From Selaginella tamariscina (taxonomy: Eukaryota; Streptophyta; Lycopodiopsida; Selaginellales; Selaginellaceae): a DNA stretch of 64,000 nucleotides. Below the pieces are notes generated by a model. That model was not told the origin of the DNA. It was given only the letters and a program-made list of their open reading frames with translations, and ran no database searches. Shown here piece after piece: positions 1,056 to 56,058 of the stretch. Position 1 is the first letter of the stretch, and each line of letters opens with the position of its first letter. Made by a program: the position numbers and the translations under genes. The stretch spans positions 124,001-188,000 of the forward strand of contig PUQB01000143.1 of NCBI GenBank assembly GCA_003024785.1, read 5' to 3'.

Positions 1056-1061
1056 TCCTTG

Positions 1062-2732: not shown

Positions 2733-2972
2733 GGTAGTGGTAAGAACTCGGAGAGGAGAGGAGGGAGCTGTGACTGAAAAAGAGGAAGGATCTTGGGGGG
2801 TGGAACAGAGGCAGAGTAAAAAGGAGGCAGGATTGGGAGAAACCTGTGTGGATGTTGACGAGTGTACAGGATTGGAAAATCCTGTACAGAAGTCCGTGGT
2901 TGCACAGGAGTGAGGGAAGCCTGTGAGTGTGCTGACGAACCAACAGGAGGTGGATCTGTTGAGGAGGAACCT

Positions 2973-3560
2973 TCAACTGATACAGGATTGGGAAGAACCC
3001 TGTACAGGAATCCGCAAACTTACAGGAGTGGAGAGAACCTGCGGATGTGCTGAGGAACTGACATGAGGTGAATCCTGTCGAGGAAGAGTCTTCAACACTG
3101 GTACAGGAACAGGCACGGTCAATCCTGTAGCTTGTACTGCCTCAGACACCAAGGATGTATCCTGCACGCAGGAAGGTACAGGATTGATCCTGGCTGCTGG
3201 AGAGGAAAACGTGAGCGTCCTAGACCTCCAGTCGATCTGCGGATTTGCAACAACGAACCATGGCATGCCAAAAATGATGGGAGTCGACCGAGTCTTGATC
3301 AAGTTGAAGGAAATCGAACAGTTGAATGCACCATGACTGCAAGAGAGAGGTGTGGTAGCGTGGGTAACTGCGCCAGAAGCAATCAAACGACCATCGGCCA
3401 CCTCTACAGGAACTGCACGCTTCAACTTCACCACCGGAATGCCATGCTGAGCTGCAAAAGTGTCATCCATGAAACATGCATTTGCACCAGTGTCTAACAG
3501 GGCAAACTCCTTGAGCTCTCGTTATTGAGGCGAATGTGTACAGGAAACTTGAGTGTGGAA
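2973..3560 (-). pseudogene. Retropepsin-type protease region, family-B copy 1
   Basis: The minus strand reads LLDTGANACFMDDTFAAQHG near 3430-3510, an aspartic protease active site (DTGA) as in gypsy elements, followed by KRAVPVEVADGRLIASG and IIFGMPWFV, typical of the second half of the fold. The DTGA start and the rest lie in different frames because of a frameshift near 3500. It would cut the gag-pol polyprotein. A long proline, valine and serine-rich linker (about 2680-2970) separates it from the RT. Confidence 0.8.
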
Positions 3561-3611
3561 TGGTATGAGCAGCACCAATGGAGCCTGCACCTACGTCCAA
3601 CTTCGCGGCTC

Positions 3612-4585
3612 CTAGACGAAGTGGACATTGAAGTTTTCCGACTGAACTTCAGCTTCGGCTTCACGCGTCTTGAACTTTCTGGCTTTATTAGGACATTCCG
3701 CCACCTTGTGTCCTGCTGCACCACAATACAAGCATAGGTTCTCACCCCGACGACGTTGCTTCTCAGCAGTTGAAAGTGGGCCACGCTTGGATTTGTTAAC
3801 CTCCATAGGAACTGCTCCAGAAGGTGTCGTAGGAACATGTGCTACGGCTACAGGATTGGTTGGCAGGAACTGCTGACGGAATTTTTCCTGACGGCGCTCG
3901 AACAAACGGTTGTCGCAGCGAACGGCCTGTTGCATGATCTCCGCTAACGTTTGAGCATCCGGTAATGTAAGGAGAAGGTCCTTCACATCATCCCTCAGCC
4001 CAAAACGGAAGTGTTCGATCAATGCAGTCTCGTCCCATGGAATGTTCGTGCACAATTGCTGAAATTCGGATGCATAAACGGAAGCTGGTCTGGATCCTTG
4101 TGTGAGCCTTCCGTAACTTTGTGCATGCAGAACGGTACTTATCAGGATCTCCAAAACAGGCTTCAAAGGCAGCCACGAAACCTTCAAAGTCTTCCATCAA
4201 TGGGTCGTCACGCTCAAGGGAGCAACCCAAGCTCGTGGAGATCCACTTAGTAAGGATGCCAAAAGGCCAACCTTTTGTGCATCCGTCGAGTAGCGGCGTG
4301 GTTGCATGCGGATCAAGAGCCGGATCTGATTCAGGAAACCTTGGAAATCGGCACGGTTGCCACTGAACTTCTCTGGCATGCTGATCTTCGGCTCCGGAGA
4401 AAAGTTCGATGAAGAAGGAACCACCGATGCCTGAGAGAGAGCCTGCGCAGCAGCCTTGGAGGATGCATCAGCAGCTGCATGTGCCGCATGGGTGGAGCCT
4501 TGCAGATCGGTGACCACTTGGCGCAAAGTGGCCAGCTCATGAAGCAACATTTGGTGCTCGCGTTGAAGTGCTCAAAATCAGCCAT
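3612..4585 (-). pseudogene. gag of family-B chromovirus copy 1
   Basis: It starts with MADFEHF at 4585 (copy 2 has MADFEQFQ). A retrotransposon gag core follows (GNRADFQGFLNQIRLLIRMQ, GSPRAWVAPL, FEGFVAAFEACFGDPDKYR, SYGRLTQGSRPASVYASEFQ), then a CCHC zinc knuckle CLYCGAAGHKVAEC near 3680-3720. The pieces lie in at least three frames, so one-base changes near 4570, 4230 and 4170 break it. Gag forms the particle that packages element RNA. Confidence 0.85.
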
Positions 4586-4669
4586 GATCTTATGAAAGAA
4601 AGAAAGGAGAAAAACGAAGGAAAAGAATCAAGGAAAAAAAAGTAGCTGGGAAACGAAGAGCTATGAAAG

Positions 4670-4682
4670 CAGTTACTATCAA
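4670..4682 (-). other. Self-priming primer-binding site, family-B copy 1
   Basis: The plus-strand sequence CAGTTACTATCAA, two bases from the LTR edge at 4685, is the exact reverse complement of TTGATAGTAACTG at 4969-4981 inside the LTR. It does not resemble the tRNA-Met site TGGTATCAGAGC found in most plant elements. Tf1/sushi-group elements prime minus-strand DNA from the 5' end of their own RNA; this arrangement fits that mechanism. Confidence 0.75.
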
Positions 4683-4968
4683 ACTGTCAAGCCACGATCC
4701 AGGAACCAGGAAGCGAGTAGGATTCCGGAACAGGAAGGCTTGACTCAGGAACAGGACCGAGAGCAGGACAGGAACTAGGAACAGGAACAGGACGGATCCA
4801 GGAGCAGGACAGGATCAGGATAGGATCCGGGAAGACAGGAAAGGCAGGACAGGATCCAGGAACAAGATAGGAACTAGACAGGATCCAGAGCAAGACAGGA
4901 GCAGGAGGCAAAGAGTAAGACAAGAACAAGACAAGAAAGGAACAAGAATAATCGTAGAATGACTGGTG

Positions 4969-8100: not shown

Positions 8101-9913
8101 ACGTAGAACAAGCCGGTGACCATCTAGCACGTCTGGGTGCGGTACGAGGGCCAGGATAGGATTGTGGAGCTTGTGGCTCTCAAGTTCTCCAGATTTCAGG
8201 AGTTGATCAATAGACCCAACGTGCGGAAGGTGCGGAAGCAGATGCGACTACTCGGCTTTTCGAGGCCCCGTGGGGAGAAGTGGAGAAGCCCGGATTTTCA
8301 GCACGGGCCAGCCATTTCATCCAGACCATACAGCTAGAGATAGGGAAAACCAAGCGAGAGGAGCTAAATCTAGATTGGGCGGCTCTACGAGCTTCTGCAT
8401 CGATCTCAATCAGCTAGCCGCCATGTTTTGCCTACCAAAGAGTGGCAATCTCTTGGAAGACCTGGGGGAACCCAGACTCTAGTGGTTCCCCACCAACCGA
8501 GATGAAATCACAATGTCCAGACTCTCCATATAGGAAAGGGACGACGTGGACGAGTTCCTGGCACTTACAATGTTTATGTTCCGGAAGAACAAAGAGGCAG
8601 GTCGCCATGCAACTAGCGAGCGCCCTCGGCAATGCCTGGGAAGGAGTCACAGTGGACTGGGCTGACTGCCTTAGGCACTACATGATCCCGGCCCTGACCC
8701 GCGGACCGGACAAAGGCTCATGACGGCGGGCCACCTCAGTGTGATGATCACCTGGATCATTAGCCAAAGCCCAATTCCCCTACCAGAGCAATTCTACTCG
8801 AACACCATCGGGAATTGGGGGCAGGAGAACAAGCGGGCCCCAGCCAAACCAAAGAAGGGAAACAGCCGGACACATCGGAGTCTTCGCGGAAACGTGTGAG
8901 AGAAGACTCCCTTGTGGAGCAAGCCAGGGGAAGAGGACCGCGGGGAAAGAAGCAAAGGGCCTCCACCACGATGTCCCATTGGCAGTTCCCAGAGCAAAGG
9001 CCCCACCAATCCAAGGGCCGCGGAACACAGGGGCGTGTTCCGTCGGCCCCTCGCAGGCCAACGAAGTGAACATCAAGGAGACACATGTAACGTGCTGAAG
9101 GGGACGTACAAATACTTCAATGCAAAGGACCTCTACAGTGCATATGGAGCTATCCAAGGCCTTCGGTCAAATTTGGAAGTCTGTAGCGGTGTACAATGGT
9201 TTGGATCTCCCGGGGGTTACTGCGGAACACAACACAATAATACAAGAGCTCACAGACAGCTATTGAACCACTCAAAAGGAGGCCTGAGAGTACTCGGACC
9301 AGCTTCTCAAGGGAGTCCACCTTTGGGATATCGCGGAAGCCAGGAGGAAGCAAGCAGAGGAGACGTGTCAATAGTTGATCGACAGCTTGGATCAACTTTA
9401 GATCAAGTACAACCACATCCAAAAGCTCCACGACCAAAAGACGAGAGTTTGAGTAGGTCACAACAAAGAAGGAGCGATAAGTTTTCGAGCTTGGCTCCAC
9501 ACTTGAGTAGCGCGAGGCAAAGCTTAGCCGGGTTCACTAGGAGTTGGCCACAACCAAAGAAGAGCTGCACCAAGCCACCAACCAGCTCGAAGTCATCCCC
9601 TCATCCTCCTCGGAGGGACCCACTCCCGAGTCGTATGGAGCTCTGGTAACCGTCTCCCCACTCGCAAAGCACCAACCAATCGAAGACCCGCAAGACTAAG
9701 CACGGACCATCAGGGAGCTAGAGGTACACACCCAGCTACAGGCTCAACTCCTCATGGCAAAGGAATAGGAGCTACAATACTCGCGAGAACGGGCGCAGGA
9801 CCTGGAGGGTCAGCTCAAGCAGGTTCAAAACAATAGGCAGGGTCCAAGGCAAAGCTCCAAAGGGTGATCGTGTTACGGGAGGCGACCATCACCACACTAA
9901 AGACCACACTAGC
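8100..9913 (+). pseudogene. Accessory reading frame downstream of pol, coiled-coil C-terminus, split by insertion
   Basis: Broken frames give WVRYEGQDRIVELVAL (from about 8131), WFPTNRDEITMSRLSI near 8480-8530, a basic Ser/Arg-rich part (SSRKRVREDSLVEQARGRG, 8878-8935) and a Gln/Glu/Lys-rich coiled coil (RTIRELEVHTQLQAQLL, AQDLEGQLKQVQNNR, 9695-9840). The frame reads straight across the family-A element: TTLKTTLA before 9913 joins ATENEIAMYQELQG after 24582 and stops at 24635-24637, confirming the insertion boundaries. The first part slightly resembles plant mobile-domain proteins, which is weak. Extra genes after pol are known in some plant gypsy lineages. Confidence 0.5.
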
Positions 9914-11715
9914 TGTCATAGTTTTTATTATGACTCAACCCTTTACTTTGGACGTTGACTGTTGTTACCTACTGTACTATGTTGACAAACCCTAGATGTA
10001 GTGAGAAACAGCCCTGCTTAGTGCACTTAGGTGTTTAAGGGTAGTCCGGTCGGCTATCTTTAGATGTCGCGAGAAACTCTAAGCGAAGGTAGCACTTACC
10101 TTCTAGAAAACCCACCCCCGATTTTGACGTCCTAGTTAAGATGAGTTTGGCATGTTAAATAGGGTTAGGAACACCCCTAGGGTTGACCTAGCCCTAGGGT
10201 TGCCCTAACCCACGCCCTAAAACCCCTTGGTTAGGGTTTAGGGGTAGGGTTAGTGTGCAAACTCATCTCATTAACTAAGGGGCTGGCATTTAGTGCCAGC
10301 CCACTAACACAAACAGGAAAAGAGGGAGGGGGGGGGGGGGGCTCCATCACATAAATAAGGTAGAGTATACGTAGGAGAGCTCTTGGGTTCATGACTAAGT
10401 TTGTTGCTCTTCTGCCGATGCAAGCTGCAGCTTGTGTCGTTAAGGTACAACCCTCTGTTGTACGCGCCTAACTTCTAGACGACAGGGGTACGTCCCACCT
10501 TCGGGGTAGCTTACCCTTAACGTTGGCGAATCCATGCCTGGGAGGACTTGTCGGGATGCACGTTCCAAGAAGCAGAGGTTGAGGCTTGTCTCCAGCCTCC
10601 TCCTCCACGTCAAGCTAGGAGCAACACTCACAGCTAACTAGGGCACATTCGTGTCCTTGTCCAACTGTGGGCGTGGGTTCTTGATTGACAGGGTTTCCTT
10701 ACCGAGTCTTGAGGGATAATTGAGGGGTTCTAGAGTTGGCATTTAGGAGCCACGTTTCTGGCACTTGGTGCAACTCTTGAATCTAAGGGCTATGGCATGA
10801 TAGCCCACATCAGGGAAGGCAGTGTCACATGGAGATGTGACACTGGGGTAAACGTCACATGGTACAACGCCTGAGGCCCGCCCTTTGGGGTTATGTCATG
10901 GACTTGTTGCCAAGGGGTTGGATACTTTAACAAACAGACATGCTTGTGCTTGCACTAGGTGCTAAGCCTTGGGCATCTGCTCAAGGAGGTTAGGTCTCAT
11001 AATTAGGTGTGCTTTGGCACACTTGGCTAGGGGAGTGTTTTCCTTGGAATTCAAGGGTTGAACAACCTAGACATGTTAACAGGAGCCCTTTCGTGAGGCA
11101 CTCGCAAGGTCATGTGCTTAGGGTCATCCCAAACCTAGCCTTAGGGAGTTTGCTTAGCAGAACACTCGTGCCTGCCTACGGCACACACTCGTGTCCTCAC
11201 TAATACTAGCCCTAGGTCTAGGGTATAACTTGGCCACTCAAACCCTTAGGGGTTAGTCGTGGTTCAGGGTACCCCTTGTCGCCCTAAAGGGTTGTACTCC
11301 TGAATGAGGGTGATTCCTCAAGGGTAAGTGACGATGCCTTAGCTCTGTCACGGGGTATGTGGAACACACGTCTCCTTGATGGGGGTTAGGGCATGAGCCT
11401 GTCTAGGTCTTCTAGGGCAAGACCCTAAGTCAACTAGGGTTATCCCTCAAGGGTTTTGGGGTAGACACTTTAGGGAGACTTAGGCTAAACCCTAAGTCAA
11501 CTAGGTTATCCCTCAAGGGTTCTGGGGGCAGACATTCTAGGGAGACTTAGGCTAAACCCTAAGTCTCCTGTCCACTTGGGCATTAGAGTCTAACCCTAGG
11601 GGTCGTTGGGGTTGTTCTGGGAAACTTAGCGTTGCTCACACAGGGTGATGACGCCAATGGCCACCTGGCAGCCATGTGTTGCCACGTGTTGGCCCTTTGG
11701 GTTAAAACTCTAACA
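9914..11715 (+). repeat. 5' LTR, family A
   Basis: It matches 22774-24577 almost base for base by eye, apart from single-base changes and a longer G run near 10330. A TATA-like ACATAAATAAGG lies near 10350, a run rich in CCCTAGGG and TTAGGG-like words covers 10165-10250, and two copies of a 67-bp unit lie at about 11420-11570. Confidence 0.95.
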
Positions 11716-11717
11716 AT

Positions 11718-11730
11718 TGGTAACAGAGCC
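11718..11730 (+). other. Primer-binding site, initiator tRNA-Met type
   Basis: TGGTAACAGAGCC begins two bases after the 5' LTR end. It differs by one base from the common plant site TGGTATCAGAGC, which pairs with the 3' end of initiator tRNA-Met. Confidence 0.85.
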
Positions 11731-12995
11731 ATTCTCTGCGGTCAGTAGGACTACCTAAAGTTGTAGTGTGTTTCAAGGTTTAGTTAGTCCTAAATTTTTA
11801 AAGTACTCTATCACTTTCGGCTAATGTCTGAATTCTGTGCAGAGAGTTGGTCCTGAGAGGTATAACTCTTCAAAGAATATCTACTTATTAAGTGGGTGTG
11901 GGTTATGGACTCCAATGTCGAAGACACTTGGAAGACAACTTCCAAGTTGTATGCCAGGTTACTTTACCTTATGAATGTTTGGGTTAATTTACCATATACT
12001 TCCACAAGACGTGGCGTGTTAGTTTGTTCTAGCTTACAAAACTAAGTCTTGGAAGTGGGTCTTGTGATATCCTAAGTCTACACATTATTGAAAATTTTTC
12101 TTTCTTTAAGGTGTTTGAATTTGGGATAACACATGATTTAGAAACAGACAGTGTCCATTGAGTTTTGACTTAGGGCAAGATTCAATATCAAGTTCAGCAA
12201 TAGTGTTTAAATGGGGAAAGACTTATGTTCGAAAGTGCATCTTTGACTTCAGAAGAAGGGGCATACTCAAACATAAGAGTGAACACTACATTTTGACATA
12301 AAAGTGTAAATAAGCTCTCATTATAGTGCATGTTTCTGAGAGTGTAACTCTAGAAGCAGACTATGGTGTTGAACTTGTAATACAACAAAATGTCAAATAT
12401 TAACATATGATGAATATGTTAAGCAGTTGGTTCAAACATCCAATGTAATCAAAAGTATTGGCCGATGTTCGTAATATTTTGATGATGCTAGCTACAAGTA
12501 ACATTAAGTGAAATAGTTTACTAAGTTCAAGTTACCTAAATTGAACATGTACAACTTGAAACCTTAATTAGTTGTAAGCATGCACTCTGTATTCAAGTTA
12601 GCTAGCTCGGCTAACTTGATTATGAAATTATTTCATATGGGATCATAAGAATGAGCTAGAATAATAGATTTTGGCAGTAGACGGATTTAATGTTGCATCC
12701 CTATCAATGCAGCTTTTTGGATGGATGGCGTGATCTATCACAAAGAGTAATGTTGGAAACATACGTTTACATTTTCAGTTTATTGAGTAATGAAGGACTT
12801 GCATAGTGAAGGCGTTCGACGCACACTTGTGCATTTTCATTGTTAACTTTTTAATCTTGAAATCTGTAACGTTGTTTACAATGTGGGCATAAGCTCTTGA
12901 ACAAGGGTGATTCCTTGGTTAAGAAGAGCATGATTTGAGGTTCTCCAGTTTGTTTATCAACTAAGTAAGGAAACTTGCTAAGTTTGATAACTTAT
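11731..12995 (+). other. Internal leader of family-A element, no gene seen
   Basis: AT-rich, stops in all frames. A short frame starting at about 11905 (MDSNVEDTWKTTSKLYARL) could be a gag remnant but ends after some 47 codons and matches nothing I recognise. Confidence 0.5.
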
Positions 12996-13128
12996 GTTGA
13001 GAATGAGGATTAGCAAAAACCGGGCTTCGTACAACGAGCTTTTCGCATATTCCCGAATATCCAAGAATATTCTGTCAAATAAACGGGAATATTCTAGAAT
13101 ATTCTGCCAAGTAGATTATCTTTAACTT

Positions 13129-16100
13129 TCAATATAAAATGCCGACCAACAAGTGAAAAACGCTAATTATTTGCCGACTAGACTTAAAAGGTCGCAGGTT
13201 CGACATTGCGCTTGCAATCAACCAATAATCGATGCACTTCTGCTGGAGTAAGGGTCCACCTCTGTAAGAAGTAAGTAATCGTTGGGTCCAATCCAAGAAC
13301 ATGAGTGTACACAAAATACATGTGTTGGCAGGGGCTCCAGTTCTTGGCTTTCTGAAAAGTTGCACAAGTGCATGACGGAACAGTAAAATTGTTACCTTAG
13401 CAGATTGCATGCCTGCAGAGACAATGAAGGCCTCAGTCTTCCCTCTTTGAACCACCTTCACGTTGTTGATCCGACCTTGAAGAATCTTTGCCTGGTTGTA
13501 ATGTTTCTCATGTTCCTTGGACATTCTTGTTGGTGTTCACACACTCCGTCCATGGTATGTTGGTACTCTATGTGCTCCCTCTCCTCTTGGTGGTGATGGA
13601 CTACTGTCGTCTACCATTTCTTCAAGTCCCTCCAACTTGAATCCTGCTTTCAGAAGAGCTTCAACCTCATTTGCATTCAAGTTTGTTCCTTTTTGAACTG
13701 GCCAAACCTCTGGAACTTCTGGAATACTCTCAGGAGGAATCCCTGCATATGGTCGTCTGAAGCAACAAGAATCACGTGGGCAGAACCAAACATCTGATGA
13801 GTGAACTCAATGTTCCCAAATGCATTTGTATATTGCCGTCTACCGTGAAATACTAGTGCCGGTACACGATATGGATATCCTATGGGTCTGCCACACTTGT
13901 TGTTACCGTCCTGAGTGAGACCTAGACATTTCACCTGACTTGCCTCCCCAATGTGTCTGATGGCCCATTGAGTCATCAACGTCTCTCTTTCAGTGACATT
14001 GACATCTTGAAACTTGAGTTTTTTCCTGTGTGCATTTGGATGACTTGTTCTGCATATTGTGTGTCATGTCTATGTGTACGAAGCGCATCAATCCCATGGT
14101 CCCCAGTTGACGGTTGACGAACGGTTCGAACACAAACATTGTTGTAGAGGCAAACTCTAGACTTGCAAGATGCTCTTCATCACTAACAAGATTTGCAAAA
14201 GTTGTTGGAGACACTGATTTTCCCGCTGAAAGTTTCTGCTGTGCATGTTTCAGAAGAGTTTCCATGGAAGGACCTGTGTCTGAATATCTCCCTTCAAATG
14301 ATGCCTTGACCTTTGCACTTTGGAAAACAACATCTGTTAAATCTAACATTGTTGCCTCCAACAAAGGAACACGCTTCGTCAGCCTTGCTCTTCGTGCTCT
14401 TGCATGAACAACTTCGGAGTTGTTAGTGGTAGGCACATTCGCAACACCATCTTCTGTCAAGTCAATTATCTCTGTCATGGAAATATGATCTTCATGTCTT
14501 GCCCACCATGACAACCATGTTTGCAAAGCGCTAACGTTACTGGACCTGCCTTCCCAAAATGACTCCAACATTACTCGTCGTTCCAACTTATCTTGGTTGG
14601 TTAGTGCTGCAGGCCATGAGCGTGCAAGGTTCATGTGCTCCTCCCTGTGTTCCTCAAGTATCCACTTCTTTGTAACTTGATGCATTGACTGCATGTAATG
14701 GAACAAACAACTCCTTTCTCTTCCTTTCATCTTTGACCCATTGTTGAAAACTTGACGCAATGCTAACCAAATTGCACCTGACTCATTTGACATGAACCCC
14801 GCAAAGTTCACATTATGAAGTCCTTGCTTGCTGCACACTTGAAGCATAGTGTTCAAAAATTTGATCACCGCCACACTATCCTCCCTGATCATGTCACCAT
14901 AAGCAAGTGTCACCATCGACCTTAAACTACACAAATATAAGTGCATTATATTAGTAAGTATTTTAAAACATAGATATGTTAATACTTACAATGGATCATA
15001 GAGATGTATTCCCAGTGTACACCAATCATCAATACGATATGTGTGGTCTAGCACCACCCACTGCTGTTCGAGATCACCTCCAGATTGACACCTTCTAATG
15101 TAGTCTATTCCAGATCCTGGGCGGTAACCGTCATTTTGAAGATTAAAGGCTGCTCTTCAGCTCCGTTGAGGTCCATTCCGGATATGTGGATAACATGTAT
15201 GAATGGGATTGATAGCTTCTTTCTTTAACTGCAGAAGTCCTTCGTAACCTTCTTTGAAACGAGTGTCTCTTGTTCTAGCCTGAGATATCCATTCTCTTGT
15301 TCTACAGTGGAAAGGTTAAGCATCTCCAAAAGGACATAATAATTTTTTGCTTACCAGCAGTGATTTGTGAGTGGTAGTAGATCTGACAGAACCTTTTTCG
15401 TATGATACATCTCCAGAATCTGTTACCAGTTTTTCCAAAATTATATTGCGTGCTGCTTGAAACTCTATGACACGTTGATTAGTTCTTGGGGTTGCAGCGA
15501 CTGCTTTTTGATTGTCCTTTAGCTCTGTCTTTAGAGACCATGGATTCGGGTGGTCTACGTGGATGTTGATGTTCTCCAAGATGGATGAAAAGCCTCGTGC
15601 ATGTGATATCATCTGGAATTATGTAATATGCAACAATGGAGCATGTTTGCACTAGAAGGGGCTCATTGTTGCAATGCACACACTTCATTCCAAGCACTCT
15701 AACATCTGAAGATAACTGGACTTTATCAATGGTGCCCTTAAATTGGCAGTCATTTGCTTTCTTACTAAAGCTGATGAACGGACATGTTTCCTTTACGCAT
15801 TTCATGTGGCCAATACATGAACTGCGACTAACACGAGCTGGAACATTCCAATGTGTTGTGCAGCGTTGAGTCCAGTAATCACACCCATCCTTCCTATTCA
15901 TCCCTTTGTACTTGTCCTTCATTGTTTCGTGTGCTGGCAACTCGTAAATCACATTTCCGTTGCAATCTTCTGGACCTCAACAACTTGCTGAATCGATGAC
16001 GAGACCAGTTGCTTCCCAATCCTACATCTCTGACTATTGCGAAGTATTGTTACCATAGAATTGTCCCGATCTGTTGTCTCCAACCGGAATAGTGGTCCTT

Positions 16101-16325
16101 TGGAAGGAAGAAGTGTGTAATACACAAAACTGCTAGCTCTTGCCCTTCTGGTTCTACCTCAACATTCGTAGCATCTCCACCAACAACAGACATCAAATGC
16201 AGCACTTTAAAAGATTGCCAAGGTGGAATGTCAAATGCAGACCTGAGATCTTTCAAAGACAAATGCAATACCATCTTCATCTGCGGGAAGTCCTTGTCAA
16301 CAACATTGTAGCTGATTCTTGCCAT
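13129..16325 (-). pseudogene. MULE-type transposase, spliced, damaged
   Basis: Exon pieces read from about 16325 (MARISYNVVDKDFPQMKM) downward. A Cys/His-rich N-terminal part (DGCDYWTQRCTTHWNV, CVKETCPFISFSK, CVHCNNEP, IHLGEHQHPRRP; 15540-15950) resembles a WRKY/FLYWCH-type zinc finger. The catalytic part QQWVVLDHTYRIDDW, LRSMVTLAYGDMIREDSV and FAGFMSNESGAIWLALRQVF (15065-14770) resembles the MULE DDE fold, with C-x2-H in SCLFHYMQSM. An intron of about 43-45 nt (GT near 14991, AG near 14947) restores the frame. One in-frame stop near 15160 and a frame change near 14060 suggest it is dead or miscalled. The position usually held by the second Asp reads Asn (MSNESGA). The 3' part (13129-13979) is not recognised. 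Confidence 0.65.
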
Positions 16326-16429
16326 GTAGCAAAAATGGAACAAACAAAAGTTAAAATTCAAAGACAATGAACATATTATACACACGATGGTTAATGTGTT
16401 TGTTAGTCGTGAGGCAATCATTTCATTGA

Positions 16430-16845
16430 CAAATATTAAAAATAATATTAATTGCGTGCGTCTGGGTAGAAGAGTGAAATTAATTTATTTCGTCTAGGTA
16501 GGTTTTTTGTAAATTAAAAAGTTTTACTATGTACAAGTGGCGATCATGCATGCAATATGTTTACAGAAATTAGGTTGGTTTTTAATTGATTTAGGGCGGC
16601 TAGGGTTTTGCAATTAGGGCGGCTAGGGCAGCTAGGGCGGCTAGGTTTTCGTGGAGCAGGGCTCATTTGGGGGCATAGCATGGAGCAAGTGTGGCTCCAG
16701 AGATTAATCACAATTAGGCTTCCATTGAGGGGGTGAGTATTTTCTGATTTCTTCATGATCTGCTCATGATCTCTTCATGATCTGTTCATCTTTTTACATC
16801 TCTTCACAGTTGCAAGAAATTCGAGTCGGCGCCTGCCGACTCGGA
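16430..16845. other. Spacer between the two MULE genes
   Basis: AT-rich with a small cluster of AGGGCGGCT units (16595-16650) and TGATCT/TCATGATC repeats near 16755-16790. It probably holds promoters for the divergent genes; no clear element was identified. Confidence 0.4.
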
Positions 16846-16849
16846 CTAA

Positions 16850-17470
16850 CTTCGTTGTCCGTCCTAGTCGGCACAGTTGACTGGGGTGGACTGTTCTAGA
16901 TCCAGTCAACATTTTTGACCGGGGTTGACTATTCCAGCCCCAGTCAGCATTTTGACTAGGGTTGACTGTTCTAGTCCACCTAGCATTTTGACTGGGCCTC
17001 GCTTCGTTCCAGTCCCAAACTGGGCCTCCCTTTGTTGCCAGTCCCAGTCGGCATTTTGACTAGGGTTGACTTTTAGTCCCACCTAGCATTTGATGAGGCC
17101 TCGCTTCGTTCCCAGTCCCATACTGGGCCTCCCTTTGTTTGCTAGTCCCAGTCGGCATGCCGACTGGGACTCCCTTTGATGCCAGGCCCAGTCGCATTGC
17201 CGACTGCGCCTCCCTTTGTTGCCAGGCCCAGTCGGCACTCCCTTTTATGCCAGGCCAGTCGGCATGCCGACTGGGACTCCTTTGATGCCAGGCCCAGTCG
17301 GCATGCCGACTGGGACTCCCTTTGTTGCCAGGCCCAGTCGGCATGCCGACTGGGACTCCCTTTGTTGCCAGGCCCAGTCGGCATGCCGACTGGGACTCCC
17401 TTTGATGCCAGGCCCAGTCGGCATGCCGACTGGGACTTACAGCAACTGCTCTCTCAGTTGGCACGCCGAC
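16850..17470. repeat. 40-bp palindrome-containing minisatellite
   Basis: A unit of exactly 40 bp repeats at 17281-17440 and in more diverged form back to about 16850. Each unit holds the perfect 18-bp palindrome CAGTCGGCATGCCGACTG followed by a GGACTCCCTTTGTTGCCAGG-like linker. The array lies between the transposase and the ParB-like gene. Long frames across it on both strands only reflect that 40 is not a multiple of three and the unit lacks stops. Confidence 0.95.
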
Positions 17471-17537
17471 TGTGAGGGCTAGTATGTTTTTTTATTTTTT
17501 ATTAAACATCTTTGAACATTTATTATAGTTTTTTGTA

Positions 17538-20065
17538 GATGCGCACTTCACAACGTTTACAAGAAAAGAAGATGAAGGAGCCTACTGAGAGAGAAGCAGA
17601 AGCTAGAGCTACAATTCAGAGAGGGCGTCGGGGTCGTGGGAGAGGAAGTAGGAAGCTGGATGTGGTTTAGGAACAAGGACCTTCAAGTGATGCTCCAGTT
17701 GAACAGGCAATCTAGCAGGACTGGTCAGGAGAGCAAGAGGATGTAGTTCAACCCCAACAAGAACAATCAGACTTTGTTGAAGAAGTTGAGGATGATGTCT
17801 TACCACAGGAGACACAGGAGCAGACAGAAGGCACACAAGCCTCATGCGCAATGACTTTGTCGAGTGACGAAGAGGATGAACCCAAGAACAAGAAGACAAA
17901 GCAAAGCTGCTGGAGATTCAGAGGCTGCTAAGAAGAAGAAGAAGGGTAAAGCAGAAGTGCCAGATAATGAGGAAGTTTACAACATTGCAGCCAGCATGCA
18001 TTCGGAGAGTGCAGTGCGTCTTCTCGCGAAGATCACAATCCGAGAATATGGAGAGGCACCAGATGTCCCTATTTGCCAAATTCTGGGAAATGAACAGGTG
18101 CGGAGAGTCAATCCAGCGGATCTGGAATCTTTGACTAGGAGTTTCAAGAAGGCAGTTGGTTATTTGCGCAACACCACTCAGTTCATCCTTCAAGTTGGGG
18201 GTGCATTTGTGTGCATATGTGTCTCTGTAAGTGCTTATAATGTGTGTGCACGTGTATATATAGATTTATGATTGTGTTTATAAGATGCAGATCTGGCAGC
18301 ATTGAGAAGCGATGAAGTGATGTATGCTCAGCATTTGGCTTTTGAGGAGGAGCTTCAAGCTGTCATGTTCCGGCAATGGGCACCAATGCTTTTGATGAAG
18401 AAGTTCATCTGTTGGGATGGTAATCACAGGCTAAAGGTGCTTCAGAAGCTGTACATAGAAGACACGGAAGATAAGAATCAGTAGGTAGTGAGAGTGCGTT
18501 CAGGCTTCATCCGTGCTGGGGTCATGGATAATCTTCAGCTTGTGACAATGTTTCAGCAAATTAATAGGTAAACATAGTGACCTCTAGATCATAGGATTAA
18601 CTAACTTCGAGATTTTCAAATATGCAGTTCCTCCGCAACGGCAGTGCAAACCACACTGCCACATCTTCTGCTATCTGTGAAGACATGTTGCACCAGTGAG
18701 GAGGGCACAGCGAAGATCTTGGCCAGGCTCAGTGACAAGGAACGAGATGACATAAGAAAGTGGAAGGAAAGCGCAACTGGACAACAAGCTTGGCATCCAC
18801 TTCCGAATTTGATCTGTGCAAAGATTTTTTTTGAGGTACCACGTCTCACACTTATATTACTTAGTTGATTACGTTTGTGAATTACAGAGTGAGATTGAGA
18901 ATGATCTTGAGAAGGCTGCAAGGGCATCCAAAGGCAACAAATACCAGGAGCAACAACAGGTCTACATTAAGCATGACAAGCACATGATGAAGATCTTAGC
19001 CATCATCGATCCTGCATTGGGTGAAGAGTGGTTCGACAAGGTGACCCAAATCACATGGAAACAATGCAGATGGATGGGGTTGGAAAAGCTGTACGCACTT
19101 TCAAGGGCGAGAATTCCAAACGAGACGAGAATCATGTACTTCAATAAACTGGTACGTCTCGAACTGAAGAGAGAGCAAGAGACACTTGGATTGCCGGGTG
19201 TTCAGGATAAGGAGTGGATAAGGTGGTTTACTATCGATTTGTATTGGCGAGCGATCAGAGAGGAGGTAGTCCAGATTCTCACGGGACTCATCGAGGATGG
19301 CGAGTGGACTAGGCCGGTTACAGATTTCACGACTTGGTACGATGAAGTGCGGGTAAAATGCAAGAACGTGATGTTCCAGCCATTCCATGAGTGTGTGAAG
19401 TTCACTTACTCCATAGAGCTGAAAGAGTTCCTCGAACACGAAGAGACAGCAAGAAGGATGATTTGGAGGTAAGGATGATCTTCTTGACATTGTTACATTC
19501 TGACACTACTATATGTTCATTACAGGTATGTCGCAGCGAGAAAGGTGCCTCACACACCTGGGCAACCACCAACATGGGAGAAGGATCTCTACAATGAACA
19601 CTCAAAAGATCTCCCATGCATCTCATGGGATCCGGCAGAGGTCGACTTCATTAAGAAGACAAAGGCCAAGGCAAAGCGGCGTCAACCTGTGCAGCAGTCA
19701 AAGAAGAACTCAGATACAGTAGCTGGCACCTCCACTACTCGCGATCCAGCTGCCTTATTCAATTTATCTGAAATGCTACCATCGCAGGAACCATGGACAT
19801 TAAGGATGACTTGGTCACATTTGTCCCTTCACTTGCTACAACTCGAGGTGATAATTTCTTGGCGATTGATGACATCGAGGAGATGCAACAGGCCGTGCTC
19901 ACGGATGAGAAGGAAGAGGAGGTTCCTGACGCTAGACTGGTTCCTTATAGAAAAGTTCAGACACAGGTGGCCAGGTACCATATAGCTGACAGCCAGACTC
20001 GCTACCAGCATATTGCGGGAGAATATGGTTTCAACTTGGTGATCTTCGACCTTCCAAATGGTGGT
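17538..20065 (+). pseudogene. ParB/sulfiredoxin-like domain fused to start of DNA amino-methyltransferase, spliced, damaged
   Basis: Begins MRTSQRLQEKKMKEPTE with a charged Lys/Arg/Glu-rich N-terminus. VPICQILGNEQVRRVNPADL (18067-18126) followed by CWDGNHRLKVLQKLY (about 18410-18455) matches the ParB/Srx pattern in which a DGxHR motif (18416-18430) is the nucleotide-binding signature. A long helical middle follows (EEWFDKVTQITWKQCRWMGL, EWIRWFTIDLYWRAIREEVV). The last exon reads HIADSQTRYQHIAGEYGFNLVIFDLPNGG; FNLVIFDLPNG resembles methyltransferase motif IV (DPPY), with Pro and Tyr altered. Introns of 50-110 nt with GT-AG ends join the parts. Stops near 17668 and 17715, one at 18482 and a frame change near 17900 suggest damage. 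The methyltransferase is cut off after motif IV at the MULE end. Bacterial and phage ParB-methylase fusions are known; here the assignment rests on motifs only. Confidence 0.5.
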
Positions 20066-20206
20066 CTTCGACCTTCCAATATTTTTTGTTTTAGAATATT
20101 CCTAAATATTCTTAGAATTTAAGAAGATCGAAGATCACCAAGTTGAAACCATATTCACCGACTGAGCCAAAATCTTAAATTCTAAGAATATTTAGGAATA
20201 TTCTAA
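20021..20206. repeat. Two interleaved perfect inverted repeats (29 and 33 bp)
   Basis: Arm A 20021-20049 is the exact reverse complement of 20128-20156; arm B 20091-20123 is the exact reverse complement of 20174-20206. The order is A-B-A'-B', not a simple hairpin. Arm A lies in the coding end of the ParB-like gene and overlaps its DLPN motif. Confidence 0.95.
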
Positions 20207-20299
20207 GAATATTCTGGTAGATTCTTTAGAATATTCCGGGTCCAAGCCCAAAAGCCCGGAAGCCCGGAAGCCCTCTTTTTGTCGGGACTCGTTGAGAAT

Positions 20300-22773
20300 T
20301 ACAAATGAGTTAGTAACAGTCGGATTTCCATTGGAGTCGGTATTCGATGAGGATCAGAAGTTGGTATTGTTTTTCAATAACGATTTCATTTTAGAGTTGA
20401 ATACGATTATTCAAAGATGGTTTCTTGACTCTGCATCATGGTCGCAAATGTGGGCACTTAAAGAACAAATAAAGTATGTATCTTTAATCTTTCGGAATAT
20501 TGAAAAATAGAACTATTCTTGACTCAAGGTTTGATTGTATTCCTTGGGTTAGTTGTTAGTTGTATCTCAAGGTTTGATGGTGTTCCTTGAGTTGGTTCAA
20601 TATTCTTGTAAGTATGATATTGTGTAACGGGATTAGCTCAAGAAGATGGTGTCCCTTCTTGATGATTGTAGTTCAAGGTTCGTTCAATATCCGATTCGAG
20701 AATATGAGGTTTTCTATCACCTCATCTGTTGAGATATTCATATCTTAGACTTTGAAAGTAGTCTTTTAATATTGATTATAAATGACTTGTCAAAGTAAAG
20801 TATGGTATCTCTTTAATATTGAGTTTGGAGCGCTCAATATCGAAACTTGGTTATGATCACACGAGGTGGCCATAATCATATAATAGAAAGACTCAAGCAG
20901 ATTTGAGTTTAACACTTTGGTAAAGCACTACCTTAGTGTTATAACTTGAAATATATTTTCAAGTTATTTGAGAAATGAGGTGTTTCTCAATACATTGCTT
21001 GAGGGGCAATGTAGTACTTTGTGGATGGCTAGGTGTTTAAATGGATAATGTATTTTAGTTCAACGTATTGAACTAAATATCTTATTCATGTTTGGGGAGA
21101 TCTGCTGAATTATGAGATATAACTGAAACATGAAGTTAGTGTGATACTTTGGTGTCATGATAACATTAGTGTGGAAAATAATATCTTACTAAATCAGTTA
21201 GATGAACCAAACACTGAGTCATGATTCCTCTTGGTCCCTGAACTGTTGCTTGATGCATTATAGCATTATCCGTCTTGAAACTAAAGTTCGAATAATATCA
21301 AGAACTAAGTCCTCATTCCATAATAATTACCACGTTTTAATATTTTGATAGTTCATGTAGTTATGTTTGATAATGTAACTATATGCGTTCACGAGAACAA
21401 AGCACTTGAGTATGCAAAGTACTTAACAAACTCATCACTTGTTAAATTCTAAACTTCAAGGTTAGTCGATGATCACGGGAACAAAATATTATCAATATCA
21501 AGAATGCAAAGGTTATATGAAATAAGGTTGTCTGAAGGTATTTCACGAACATTAAATTGAATTAGATGATAAAGCATTACTTTTGAGTTATTCGAAAGTA
21601 AGTTACTTTAATTGAATGATTCAAATTAGTGACACTGCTGTGTTTCAATATTAGCTTATTGAAATCTTGTGTAATCAATTTTACGAGTTGGAAAAGTATA
21701 ATATTATAATGATTTGGTATTCGAGTTTAGGGAGACTCTTATCATAAAGCCGAAAGTCTCTTAACTTAATTCTAGGATTAAGTTATGTGGCCTTAGCGAG
21801 ATTAAGAGTTAGGAATTATTGAATGCATCTAGTATGTTGTGCTCTTTAAGGAATGAGTACAATGAGAGTGACAATTAAGAGATGTGTTATCTAAAGGTTG
21901 CCGATTGAGGCACTGGAGATGGATTGAATTTCCTGGTTTCCACATTGATTTATAAGAAAGGTATGTTAGCTTATCTGGTCCCTGAACTGGTTGGTGTTAT
22001 GAAAGAGTACAAAGATGGTTGCGAAGGATGAATGGTAAGGTTATCAACTTGGTCGCGGATTTGACTGAATTTGATTCCTATCGGGAATAAATTTATGTTA
22101 ATAACACATCAAGTGAATGGCAGTTGGTAGATTGGCAAGACCTTGTTGTATACTTATATCGGAAAAGAGCTTGATTCCAATAAAAGTCTCATACTTAGTC
22201 TGGCGTAGCTATATACTAATGAGAGATAGGTATAGTAGCAGACCCTTATGAAAAGGGGTAATGAGAAGCATCGAGGGATGCAGAGATGTAAGAGATGTGG
22301 GACCATTAGAAAATCAAAAGAAATGCGAAGGTATTTGGTCAAGCATTTGAGAAGTGCTTGTTCTGTGTTAAACGACAGAGGTCGTCAACAACATTTAATA
22401 TAAAGGAATAAAGAAAGTCTTTATTTTTATTAACCAAGGGCCGGCAACAACACTAACTAGAGGCCTCCAAATATAAATTCTAGTTAAGTAAAGAAATTAA
22501 CCAGTGTTGTGTACGTCGGGTGACAAACTTTGCAAACGTGCAAAAGGTCTCCAAGTGACTTCATGTCGCAGGTGGTGCCTCCGGCAGCTGGGTTTATGAC
22601 TTAGTGAACGACGGTTCTGAAGTACTTGGTTTCGCATAATGCAAGGACTTATGTGAACTTTTGGCTGACTCCACATAGAGTGATATGTTAGTTTTGGTTA
22701 ATTTTTTCTAACATTATCTAGTCTTGGAGTTGGACGTCAATGAGGACGTTGACATTTTCAAAGGCAGGGAGTG
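20300..22773 (+). other. 3' interior of family-A element, no gene seen
   Basis: AT-rich with frequent stops. The only longer frame (20292-20510, 72 codons) has no recognisable motif. Bases 22370-22773 resemble 28260-28640, the 3' untranslated part of the related chromovirus fragment. The last bases AAAGGCAGGGAGTG form the polypurine tract. Confidence 0.6.
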
Positions 22774-24577
22774 TGTCATAGTTTTTACTATGACTCAACC
22801 CTTTACTTTGGACGTTGACTGTTGTTACCTACTGTACTATGTTGACAAACCCTAGATGTAGTGAGAAATAGCCCCGCTTAGTGCACTTAGGTGTTTAGGG
22901 GTAGTCCGGCCGGCTATCTTTAGATGTCGCGAGAAACTCTAAGCGAAGGTAGCACTTACCTTCTAGAAAACCCACCCCGATTTTGACGTCCTAGTTAAGA
23001 TGAGTTTGGCATGTTAAATAGGGTTAGGAACACCCCTAGGGTTGACCTAGCCCTAGGGTTGCCCTAACCCACGCCCTAAAACCCCTTGGTTAGGGTTTAG
23101 GGGTAGGGGTTAGTGTGCAAACTCATCTCATTAACTAAGGGGCTGGCATTTAGTGCCAGCCCACTAACACAAACAGGAAAAGAGGGGGGGGGCTCCGTTA
23201 CATAAATAAGGTAGAGTATACGTAGGAGAGCTCCTAGGTTCAGGACTGAGTTCATTGCTCTTCTACCGGTGCAAGCTTCAGCTTGTGTCGTTAAGGTACA
23301 ACCCTCTGTTGTACCGCCCTAACTTCCAGACGACAGGGGTACGTCCCACCTTCGGGGTAGCTTACCCTTAAGGTTGACGAATCCATGCCTGGGAGGACTT
23401 GTCAGGATGCACGTTCCAAGAAGCAGAGGTTGAGGCTTGTCTCCAGCCTCCTCCTCCACGTCAAGCTAGGAGCAACACTCACAGCTAACTAGGGCACATT
23501 CGTGTCCTTGTCCAACTGTGGGCGTGGGTTCTTGATTGACAGGGTTTCCTTACCGAGTCTTGAGGGATAATTGAGGGGTTCTAGAGTTGGCATTTAGGAG
23601 CCACGTTTCTGGCACTTGGTGCAACTCTTGAATCTAAGGGCTATGGCATGATAGCCCACATCGGGGAAGGCAGTGTCACATGGAGATGTGACACTGGGGT
23701 AAACGTCACATGGTACAACGCCTGAGGCCCGCCCCTTTGGGGTTATGTCATGGACTTGTTGCCAAGGGGTTGGATACTTTAACAAACAGACATGCTTGTG
23801 CTTGCACTAGGGTGCTAAGCCTTGGGCATCTGCTCAAGGGAGGTTAGGTCTCATAATTAGGTGTGCTTTGGCACACTTGGCTAGGGGAGTGTTTTCCTTG
23901 GAATTCAAGGGTTGAACAACCTAGACATGTTAACAGGAGCCCTTTCGTGAGGCACTCGCAAGGTCATGTGCTTAGGGTCATCCCAAACCTAGCCTTAGGG
24001 AGTTTGCTTAGCAGAACACTCGTGCCTGCCTACGGCACACACTCGTGTCCTCACTAAGTACTAGCCCTAGGTCTAGGGTATAACTTGGCCACTCAAACCC
24101 TTAGGGGTTAGTCGTGGTTCAGGGTACCCCTTGTCACCCTAAAGGGGTTGTACTCCCGAATGAGGGTGATTCCTCAAGGGTAAATGACGATGCCTTAGCT
24201 CTGTCACGGGGGTATGTGTGGAACACACGTCTCCTTGATGGGGGTTAAGGCATGAGCCTGTCTAGGTCTTCTAGGGCAAGACCCTAAGTCAACTAGGGTT
24301 ATCCCTCAAGGGTTTTGGGGGTAGACACTTTAGGGAGACTTAGGCTAAACCCTAAGTCAACTAGGGTTATCCCTCAAGGGTTCTGGGGGCAGACATTCTA
24401 GGGAGACTTAGGCTAAACCCTAAGTCTCCTGTCCACTTGGGCATTAGAGTCTAACCTTAGGGGTCGTTCGGGTTGTTCTAGGAAACTTAGCGTTGCTCAC
24501 ACAAGGTGATGACGCCGAATGGCCACCTGGCAACCATGTGTTGCCACGTGTTGGCCCTTTGGGTTAAAACTCTGACA
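22774..24577 (+). repeat. 3' LTR, family A
   Basis: Starts TGTCATAG, ends ACTCTGACA, followed by the target duplication CTAGC. See the 5' LTR at 9914-11715 for comparison. Confidence 0.95.
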
Positions 24578-24582
24578 CTAGC

Positions 24583-24932: not shown

Positions 24933-26816
24933 TGTAAGAGTTTTTACCCGAAGGGCCACCACATGGCAACACATGGCTACTAGGCGGCCATCTAGTGTCA
25001 TAACCATGTATGAGCAACGCTAAGTCTCCCAGAACCACCCCAATGACCCCTAGGGTTAAACTCTAATGCCCAAGTGGACAGGAGACTTAGGGTTTAGCCT
25101 AAGTCTCCCTAGAATGTCTGCCCCCAAAACCCTTGAGGAATAACCCTAGTTGACTTAGGGTTTAGCCTAAGTCTCCCTAGAGTGTCTGCCCCAGAACCCT
25201 TGAGGGATAACCCTAGTTGACTTAGGGTTTAGCCTAAGTCTCCCTAGAGTGTCTGCCCCAAAACCCTTGAGGGATAACCCTAGTTGACTTAGGGTTTAGC
25301 CTAAGTCTCCATAGAGTGTTTGCCCCCAAAACCTTTGAGGGATAACCCTAGTTCCTACCCTAGAAGACCTAGACAGGCTCATCCCCTAACCCCCATCAAG
25401 GAGACTTGTGTTCCACACATACCCTCAATAGACCCTCAATTAAGTACAACCCCTAAAAGACGACGAGGGTATCTTGACCCACAACTAACCCCTAAGGGTC
25501 TGAGTGGCCAAGTCATACCCTGGCTCTAGGGTTAGTACCTAGAGAACACATGAGTGTCTGCAGTCAGCGACACGAGTGATCCCCTAAGCATTCCTTAGAG
25601 GCTAAGGTTGGAAAACCCTAACCCTTATTCCCCAAAGGGAACCATGCCTATGTCTAAGAAGACCCTCGCTAAGGAGCTTAGGTTGTTCAACCCTCAAACA
25701 TGCTTCCACATCCTGAGAACGAACACCCTTAACCATGTGTGCTAGTAAGCACACTTGGCAAAGAGACCTAACCTCCCTTGGGCATGTGCCCAAGGCTTGG
25801 CCCTAGTCCTAGAACACGAACATGTGCTTGTCAGGTTCACCAACCCCTCGGCCTTAGGCTCGAGACACGACCCCGTGGGTCATGCCCTGAGTGTTGCACT
25901 TGTATGAAACCCATCCTAGTGTCACATGTGTGTGTGGCACCGTTTCACAGGACAAGGCTATCTTCATAGCCCCCTTAGAGACAAGAGTTAGACCCAGTAC
26001 CACGATCGTGGCTCACCAGATGCCAACTCTTAGAGCCCACACTCGAATACCCCTTTGGGAACATGTCTACCTAAGAGCTCATCCCCTGAAACAGAGTCTT
26101 AACGATTACCCAAATGTGTGAGCGAGTTACCGGACGAAAGGAGTTGGCTAACTCCTAGATGTGGTGTACCCGGGCATAGTAGTGCAAATTTGCCAATGAT
26201 AAGGGTAGGCTACCCCTAACGTGTGACGTACCCCGCGGGTGAGTGGGACACGGCAGCATAGCGAGTATGCCTTGACGACATGAGACGAACCCATGCTGGT
26301 GGGGAGGAAGGAACCAAAGACCTCTCAGTCTTTGGCCTGCTTGCCCCACACCTACTCTACCTTATTTTTGTGATAGAGCCACCCCCCCTTAAAATGCCAT
26401 TCTAATAAGTGGGCTGGCACGAAAATCTATCCCCAATGCAAAAGAGACAGTGAGTTTACCCAATCGACCCCATCAACCCCTAAACCCTACCCCAAGGGGG
26501 GTGGGGGTTTTAGGGCGTGGGTTAGGAAAACCCTAGGGTTAGGTCAACCCTAGGGGTGTTCCTAACCCTATTTAACATGCCAAACTCATATTAACTAGGA
26601 TGTCAAAATTGGGGGTGGGTTTTTTAGAAAGTAAGTACTACCTTCGCTTAGAGTTTCTTGCGACATCTAGAGATAGCCAGCCGGACTACCCTTAAATACC
26701 TAAGTGCACTAAGCGGGGCTGTTTCTTACTATATCTAGGGTCTGTCAACATAGTACAGTAGGTAACAATAATCAACGTCCAAAGTAAAGGGTTGAGTCAT
26801 AGTAAAAACTATGACA
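24933..26816 (-). repeat. Solo LTR, family A, minus orientation
   Basis: The whole 1.88-kb segment is a diverged reverse-complement copy of the family-A LTR: plus strand begins TGTAAGAG and ends AAAACTATGACA. The 5 bases outside each end (CCACA, ACACA) agree at four positions, fitting a target duplication. No internal sequence is attached, so it arose by LTR-LTR recombination. It carries four copies of the 67-bp tandem unit (about 25075-25350). Confidence 0.85.
25075..25350. repeat. 67-bp tandem repeat inside the solo LTR
   Basis: The word TAACCCTAGTTGAC starts at 25141, 25208, 25275 and 25343, a 67-68-bp period. The two LTRs of the complete family-A element carry two copies each. Confidence 0.9.
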
Positions 26817-26821
26817 ACACA

Positions 26822-32785: not shown

Positions 32786-34377
32786 TTATTTAGCCGCACA
32801 GCTGCAAAACCGTGCTGGTCGATGCAATCGCATTGTAAACAAGCGTCCAGGGACGGGCGTAAACTGCTTGGTCACAAGTTTGATAGCTTCTTGTGATGCA
32901 ATCCCACCAACAACAGCACCGACGCAGTGAACTTCCCCAGCACCAAATCTACAAAACTCACTCACAAGCTCCTCCGCAACAGAACCTCCACCAAACCCAA
33001 GCTCGCATACCATCCCCGTCAGCTTGGACACATCGTCCTCGACTTCGTCCTCTATCGTCCCAGGGAATCGTCCGTGAGCCTCGTAAAACCTGTCCACGGC
33101 TCGAAACAGAAGAAAGACCGTGTAGTTGCTCTTCTCATCTTCCAATGGAAGGACCTTTCTCAGCTTATCGCCAGCTCCGGCGTATTCCTCGGACAGCCGG
33201 GGATATCTTACCACCCGCAAGTTCCTCGAGTTCTTGCAGAAGTTCTTCACGGATGCCCGAGGAATCTCCTGCACATCCCTCCCCATCTGCTTGAGTATCG
33301 CCCCAACATGTTCCTCCATTGCTGACACGTCCGCCTCGGCTCTCTGGTAGCACTTCTGCAGCTGGATGTAATACTCAGTAAACGAATGCATATCTGGAAT
33401 GGCTCCGTCAAGTGGAAGCTCCCCACGTCCCTCGTTGGCAATGAATCGCTTCAGAGCTGCGACCAGAATCCAAACTCGGACGAGGCAGCATCAACATCCA
33501 ATGCGGGGTCTTCCAGAATCGCCTTGAGTTCAGAGCTCATGGTTGGTGGCGACCAGACCATAAAAGCCGAGGCCAAAGCCTCTTTGTAGTTATCATCGTC
33601 TTCGGAACGCCTCCCTGCCGAGATCATCGTTTTGAACTCGGACCTCTCCTTGATGTTCGATGGGAGCGAACCTCCGTGGCTCTTCTTCCAGTTCTCAGAG
33701 AGCTGCAGGAGGATCACCGCGAATGGAATATGCTTGTGAACCACCGGGTCTGAAGTGTCAATGTCGAAATGAGAGACGAGTTTGGCAAGCTCCGGCCAAG
33801 GATCGTGTAGGCGCAGATCGTTGACGGAGCTATCGGGCTTGGTCTCAACGACTGCGTGCTCGGACACGCTAACTCTCACTAGTCCCAATAGACCGTAAGA
33901 GCGAGCAACGAGAAGCGGAATCGACTTGTTCCTGCAGATGGAATCCAGAGCTGTCAAGCTGCTCTCTCGCATCTGGGTGGCGATGACGAGTGTGAACCTG
34001 GCAAAGAAGTTGGGCTCTGAATCGATGAGCGACTCCGGAGAGACTTCAATGTGGTCGATGACGACCAGTTCGTTCATTTCCCTCAAGAGGGCAGCCACGC
34101 ACTTCGACCGAGGCTGACCCAGATCCTCGGATCGCAGCAGGAAGTTGTTGCCGAGGTCCGGCTCCTGGACGGGGTTGGGATCGACAATCGTGACGCTTCC
34201 AACGCCGCCCAAGACGAGATTCTTGAGTGCCTCGCTGCCAGTGGCGCTGCAATTGAGAAGGCAGACGGAGGCTCGCTCCAGAGCTAGCTGGCCGTGCTCA
34301 CCCCAGATACGAAGCTGTCGGTCGTACTTGATGCTTTGGTGGCGGAGCCGTTTGAAAGGGCCATGAAACCTGGACAA
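32786..34377 (-). CDS. AXR1: AXR1-like regulatory subunit of the NEDD8/RUB-activating enzyme E1
   Basis: With its partner ECR1/UBA3 this protein activates the ubiquitin-like modifier RUB/NEDD8, which then modifies cullins; in plants this is needed for auxin response. The start MSRFHGPFKRL at 34377 leads into KYDRQLRIWGEHGQ, LLNCSATGSEALKNLVLGGV and GSVTIVDPN, the adenylation-type Rossmann fold, which in this subunit lacks the catalytic Cys. The C-terminus has FCKNSRNLRVVRYPRL, EVHCVGAVVGGIASQEAIKL and VTKQFTPVPGR and stops at 32786. Total span equals about 530 codons, close to the plant family length of roughly 540, with no intron. One base is missing in an A run at 33472-33474: FGFWSQL-stop should read FWILVAALKRF, after which the frame is perfect. 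I treat it as a live gene with a probable sequence error. Confidence 0.92.
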
Positions 34378-52532: not shown

Positions 52533-52599
52533 ACAACTTGTAGTCTATACGGGAACTGGAGGAAGAGGAACTTGCGATGTCAGGACTAATGTGTGAAAA

Positions 52600-54979: not shown

Positions 54980-54990
54980 CTTCGTGACTC

Positions 54991-55966: not shown

Positions 55967-56043
55967 GATTTATGAAAAAAGGAGGAAAACAAAAGAGAAG
56001 AATCAAGGAAAAAAAGTAGTTAAAAATCAGAAAGCTATGAAAG

Positions 56044-56056: not shown

Positions 56057-56058
56057 AT

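Follow-up and report, generated by a model that had tools for sequence, protein, structure and literature searches.

Does a plant transposon encode a protein that could recognize and mark the transposon's own DNA? The question is raised by a locus of Selaginella tamariscina, which was analysed in a window of 64,000 nucleotides (assembly GCA_003024785.1, contig PUQB01000143.1, forward-strand positions 124,001 to 188,000); all coordinates below are counted from the first letter of this window. A first-pass annotation, made from the letters of the window alone, had proposed that a Mutator-like element (MULE) carries a gene in which a ParB-like domain is fused to the beginning of a DNA methyltransferase. 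Proteins with these two parts have been suspected of self-marking, and the available part of the published account names no target sequence. The young, high-copy plant family described here offers a candidate target, the half-site TGCCGACTG and a palindrome, which is kept between two subfamilies, A and B, despite diverged flanks. This makes the self-marking idea directly testable. An altered catalytic motif raises the further question of whether the methyltransferase domain has kept its enzymatic activity.

The element, its family and its two genes

The window copy of the element spans 7286 bp (13005..20290), its borders being set by the left end common to most fetched copies and by end-to-end lengths. 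It is flanked by an exact 9-bp target duplication, GTTGAGAAT, which was read by eye (12996..13004 on the left and 20291..20299 on the right). The element is nested inside an LTR retrotransposon (9914..24577). The two LTRs of this host (9914-11715 and 22774-24577) are 97.0% identical over 1815 columns, and a 5-bp duplication, CTAGC, read by eye, lies on either side of it (9909-9913 and 24578-24582). No long reading frame was present in the ORF listing for the retrotransposon interior outside the MULE (11716-12995 and 20300-22773). Just downstream, at 24933-26820, there is a partial inverted further copy of the same LTR. Two gypsy-like retrotransposon copies, 87-89% identical and in the same orientation, are found elsewhere in the window (4-4793 and 51569-56169), with reverse-transcriptase-like frames that were assigned by eye.

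Inside the element, two genes diverge from a region of G+C-rich tandem repeats (16839..17472). The minus-strand gene (13184..16325), delimited from its reading frames, is a broken copy of the transposase gene with a SWIM-like finger near its end. The SWIM match was below the cut-off in two profile searches (E 0.016 and 0.026), and no transposase profile matched this gene at E up to 10. The second gene lies on the plus strand (17538..20062) and is broken and truncated.

How common is this element? I searched the same genome, of 300,702,823 bases in 1391 contigs, and fetched 20 element copies. The ParB exon of the window found 217 candidates; all 40 that were scored matched, the 39 others at 97%. 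A transposase piece of another copy, L016, found 223 candidates, of which 40 were scored, every one at 100%. For at least 28 of these 40, the matches listed include a place of the ParB or the methyltransferase part on the expected strand and at the expected spacing from the transposase. The left end falls within a few bases of window position 13005 in 15 of the 20 fetched copies. Both ends are present in 14, and 11 of these are 7722-7942 bp long; for the others, lengths of 4957, 7343 and 7811 bp were noted, the last of which lies inside that range. With a slack of 4 nt per end, the 9-bp duplication is exact in 6 of the 14 and has at most one mismatch in 7, the remaining 7 showing 2-5 mismatches. 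The terminal inverted repeats consist of an imperfect, gapped similarity of about 60 nt between the two ends of L016, with no long perfect repeat. By its 9-bp target duplication and its terminal inverted repeats, the element is Mutator-like, as first annotated, and it is a two-gene element composed of a transposase gene and a divergent second gene, of which the window holds a decayed copy. In one MULE copy, L025, a portion of the second gene is tandemly duplicated.

The exon structure of the second gene was modelled from L016, whose six exons are separated by GT-AG introns 52-60 nt long. Of the 19 aligned copies, 18 have GT-AG borders at all five introns. In the window, the exons are 17538-18567, 18628-18835, 18888-19468, and 19526-20062, and the introns are 60, 52, and 57 nt long. 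The first annotation had put the introns at 50-110 nt. The stretch 18201-18282 was rejected as an intron; it is mostly extra DNA, the other copies having about 10 nt there versus 82. Stop codons and frameshifts interrupt the window copy, which also lacks about 110 nt near 19555 and has no coding sequence of this gene past 20062. Its end is rearranged, with two interleaved inverted repeats at 20022..20205, seen by eye, one arm of which was also computed (20124-20162, minus strand). Lying where the gene is cut off, these repeats resemble a template-switch scar.

As assembled, none of the 19 aligned copies has an open frame for the second gene. Substitutions among the A copies are rare (mean 0.42% in exons and 0.29% in introns, 19 copies), and exon deletion events average 5.4 per copy (103 events, 19 copies). 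A minus-strand gene of the same window (32789-34401), which I take to be AXR1-like from its appearance, is also frameshifted without room for an intron, and thus assembly indel error is suspected. The broken frames probably reflect assembly error superimposed on young copies rather than decay.

The methyltransferase domain and the ParB-like region

Queried with the window copy of the second gene, profile and protein databases yielded nothing, mainly because this copy lacks most of the methyltransferase domain. Its coding sequence ends with FNLVIFDLPNG (20030..20062), at the position of motif IV of a methyltransferase start, with the D of DLP at 20048 as first annotated. As a check, the first annotation had asked for fuller copies with DPPY followed by VLDxFxGxG. 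Continuing copies do exist. In them, about 120 residues come after FNLVIFDLPNG and are followed by PKSTRLMQLVIERLTRPGDLIWDIGSGTGSSMLAA; motif X comes after DLPNG, and then WDIGSGTGSS. The DPPY position is occupied by DLPN.

In the read-through protein, the Pfam profile PF01555 matched over motifs X and I (E 3.2e-9, 37.5 bits versus a cut-off of 26.7), so that the proposed methyltransferase assignment stood. The match is present in both subfamilies A and B. Searched against the genome, PF01555 gave 739 candidates, and all 150 that were scored were over the cut-off. PHROG 67 also matches the methyltransferase part (E 6e-12), as do the PDB sequences of MboIIA (4.7e-4), DpnA (9e-4), and CcrM (0.0018). 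At E up to 0.1, tblastn matched 302 phage records and 584 plasmid records; the best of the latter included Curtobacterium plasmid methylases located amid TerD-family genes (L046, 2318-3055, E 1e-7, 28%; L048, 2324-3052, E 2e-4, 28.7%). A profile-profile comparison of the methyltransferase part with phage ParB-methylases gave 84.9% (E 6e-6). The order of the motifs, IV and then X and I, is that of the beta class.

It was revealed that DLPN aligns to DPPY in three plasmid or phage methylases and to DPAY in a fourth. The catalytic motif DPPY/F/W was not found in this family: 35 of 35 distinct readable copies (28 A and 7 B) have DLPN, as counted from 37 reads with EYGFNL, including two pairs from the same copy. 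In aligned A copies, including that of the window, DLPN is present in 21 of 21 and DGNHR, the ParB signature discussed below, in 23 of 23. Since the A copies are nearly identical, the weight rests on the agreement between A and B. Taken alone, the motif IV stretch did not stand out from its shuffles when scored with a profile of methyltransferase starts (996 and 772 of 5000 shuffles; 1224 and 1501 of 10000), and the identification of motif IV therefore rests on position and alignment. DLPN is without the usual aromatic residue. Motif X and, after it, the SAM-binding motif DxGxGxG are both well conserved. In summary, the second gene encodes a predicted beta-class N4/N6 methyltransferase domain whose catalysis is questionable given DLPN. 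The DLPN form of motif IV, not DPPY, in both subfamilies is new here.

The whole predicted protein is about 990 residues in length. It comprises a charged tail, a ParB-like region, a long middle without known relatives, and the putative methyltransferase. Neither the window gene nor, in a later search, the longer protein's methyltransferase part had a relative at the set limits among 5.8 billion proteins, and pattern scans of prokaryote genomes and viral contigs gave none either.

Is the ParB-like region a true ParB? It spans 18056..18567 on the plus strand and contains DGNHR at 18416-18430, inside a coding stretch, as had been reported; the signature is also kept in the diverged subfamily B, which argues against chance. 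The Pfam ParB profile (PF02195) matched neither the window protein nor the longer proteins, and gave no candidate in the genome. Profile-profile comparison of the ParB part with phage ParB-methylases gave 0.5%. A fold model from the single sequence was useless (pLDDT 33.6). A model with viral ParB rows reached pLDDT 68.3, being biased by design toward ParB, and no solved ParB was among the 50 structures listed for it, the best E being 0.1. Profile and fold tests thus failed to return a ParB, and the support for this half of the first annotation comes from tailored profiles compared with shuffles.

In a MAFFT alignment on 33 viral ParB rows, the residues N, R, S, G, P, G-N-H-R, and N of the window protein are in register, with one long insert. 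A profile of 52 viral ParB-methylases, used without an allowed insert, gave scores that were reached by 8 (A) and 40 (B) of 10000 shuffles. A narrower first ParB profile was weaker (156 for A and 41 for B, of 5000 shuffles). With an insert allowed, the best score was taken over many placements of one cut insert, and the same freedom was given to the shuffles. The score of A was 18.8 versus 10.9 for the best shuffle, none of 1500 being as good; the score of B was 9.2 and was reached by 5 of 1500. A version with the insert cut after viewing the alignment (0 of 20000 shuffles for both A and B) was set aside, since the cut had been chosen afterwards. Judged by these comparisons, the region is best termed ParB-like, not ParB, and its resemblance to the ParB part of viral ParB-methylases is beyond chance.

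Two subfamilies and a shared half-site

Subfamily B was found among the PF01555 places, and its protein was pieced together from several copies. A and B are 58% identical over 850 residues of protein. In five segments (563 codons), the protein identity is 51-74%, with a pN of 0.256 and a saturated pS of 0.855. In the sole computable segment, dS is 2.97 versus a dN of 0.28. The low pN against the saturated pS, together with the kept protein identity, indicates that the second gene was probably held under purifying selection for long during the divergence of A and B. Within the young A family, no selection was seen (63 singletons, distributed 17, 27, and 19 by codon position), as expected because the copies are so recent. 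One B element, L045, was examined for its transposase; the transposase start lies on the opposite strand and is 45% identical (E 7e-86), with some in-frame stops.

What lies between the two genes? Six perfect palindromes, CAGTCGGCATGCCGACTG, occupy 17149..17432 in the window (starts at 17149, 17256, 17295, 17335, 17375, and 17415), and a seventh with two mismatches follows at 17455-17472. The intergenic region of the window has these 7 palindrome matches versus none in 100 shuffles. In the genome, CAGTCGGCATGCCGACTG occurs 1135 times and its reversed control 0 times. Fifty distinct sites among the matches listed form 8 clusters of 3-10, each of which adjoins a transposase, ParB, or methyltransferase place of this MULE family. 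Among the 14 complete copies, the number of palindromes varies from 0 to 6.

The core TGCCGAC also occurs near the ends of the element. On the left it has two positions, 132-136 and 164-168 nt inside the border; 12 of 14 copies have both, and 13 of 14 have one or both. On the right, 13 of 14 copies have it 115-135 nt inside the border. The window copy has kept the two left sites (13140..13178, plus strand; 136 and 168 nt from the left end) and lost the right one. The intergenic repeats of B differ from those of A, having a 138-nt period. It was found that TGCCGACTG is the commonest 9-mer common to the A and B intergenic regions. In B, 4 exact occurrences lie in 811 nt versus none in 300 shuffles, and with one mismatch allowed there are 10 versus a shuffle mean of 0.16. 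In the B element, TGCCGACTG is also found beyond the 3′ end of the second gene.

Possible roles and known systems

I consider it an even call that the ParB-like protein reads TGCCGACTG and that the element is thereby marked or shielded, or both genes controlled together. Both genes start from a shared region with tandem palindromes built from TGCCGACTG. The further steps may be as follows. The ParB-like part would read this half-site, and the protein would then gather on its own element, at the array and at the end sites. The methyltransferase domain would either methylate the element DNA or, given DLPN, be a non-catalytic binder of cofactor and DNA. In both cases the outcome might be a mark on the element or a shield from host silencing, or else joint control of the two genes. 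A bolder form of this proposal, in which the protein and a parS-like palindrome array serve self-recognition and the DLPN domain marks or coats the DNA so that hundreds of young copies escape silencing, is held only tentatively and would more probably fail than succeed.

A different protein may read the same sequence. Transposases commonly bind near the ends of their elements, and the half-site core is found near both ends of nearly every complete copy. If the transposase binds TGCCGACTG, the arrays would serve transposition or promoter control and the methyltransferase would act elsewhere or on a different sequence. However, the sites close to the two ends point the same way, whereas mirrored transposase sites would be expected in inverted ends, and the half-sites are densest in mid-element, between the two promoters. 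I regard binding by the transposase as rather unlikely. Another possibility concerns the role of the domain itself. It may be a retired enzyme which only binds, the protein being a DNA-bound regulator or shield. The uniform DLPN of A and B, against DPPY or DPAY in the four aligned relatives, favours this, and METTL14, a non-catalytic partner, has EPPL in place of DPPW. On the other hand, motif X and the SAM-binding DxGxGxG are well kept, and NLPY enzymes, Erm and KsgA among them, are known to have leucine in the second position. Loss of catalysis is a real prospect, a little short of an even chance.

The likeness to ParB may also be convergence of a short motif in a region with another fold, as the negative ParB profile and fold tests would allow. 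Yet the alignment preserves the residue order of viral ParB (N..R, S, G, P, G-N-H-R, N), the shuffle result for A is strong, and PMC12477816, in its available part, describes proteins of this class as ParB-like plus methyltransferase. Convergence seems improbable to me. Finally, the second gene may be a passenger, captured and copied with the element and doing nothing for it. MULEs often capture genes, according to the available part of a review (PMC13317346); moreover, no copy is open as assembled and no selection is visible within the young family. This explanation is largely refuted by the comparison of A and B, which differ at most synonymous sites and yet keep their protein identity, and the transposase is also kept in the B element examined. 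A mere passenger is thus very improbable. Captured gene or functional partner were the two options first raised; a lone capture does not fit, since the diverged subfamily B has the same protein and no different one after DGNHR.

Returning to binding of TGCCGACTG by the ParB-like protein, I compared this gene with known systems. The MULE survey PMC6446971 does not contain the words methyltransferase, ParB, or Selaginella in its main text, and methyltransferase does not occur in the available part of the 2026 review PMC13317346. In the open-access literature searched, no land-plant MULE was found to be reported with a protein of this kind. The first annotator likewise knew of no such cargo of a plant MULE. 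This holds for land-plant MULEs as far as searched, but not for transposons in general. As described in the available part of PMC12477816, the transposon Sola1-1_Ec32 of Ectocarpus encodes a protein of 1104 residues, ParB-like plus N4/N6-methyltransferase, opposite to the transposase. Self-binding and self-modification are suggested by its authors, who also cite cases from green and red algae (Iyer 2011; Petroll 2025). Likened by description, both systems have one long two-domain protein on the strand opposite to a DNA-transposon transposase. They differ in that the former is a Sola element of a brown alga and the latter a Mutator-like element of a plant, and that part of the account says nothing of motif IV or of target arrays.

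A Streptococcus phage protein (vb_Spy_7, WNI00524.1) has the same order of parts, a ParB part and then a PF01555 domain with motif IV before X and I. It is 530 residues in length, has no long middle, carries DPPY, and matches PF02195 above the cut-off. In contrast, the MULE gene has introns and encodes about 990 residues with DLPN and no PF02195 match. The VANC protein of VANDAL, an Arabidopsis MULE, is described in the available part of PMC5735166 as binding the motif YAGTATTAY, amplified in tandem repeats, and removing DNA methylation. In both cases the gene is the second one of a MULE, and a short motif is tandemly amplified in noncoding stretches of the element. That part of the paper names no methyltransferase domain, and whereas binding and loss of methylation are shown for VANC, the protein described here is proposed to bind. 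DNA methyltransferases in dinoflagellate and charophyte retrotransposons and adenine methylases in DIRS elements (PMC5890265) are likewise transposon-borne; these are C5 or Dam-like enzymes of retrotransposons, a ParB part going unmentioned in the available part of that paper. As far as these sources extend, the class of ParB-like plus methyltransferase proteins is already known from brown, green, and red algal transposons, and the version in a plant MULE is a new variant of it.
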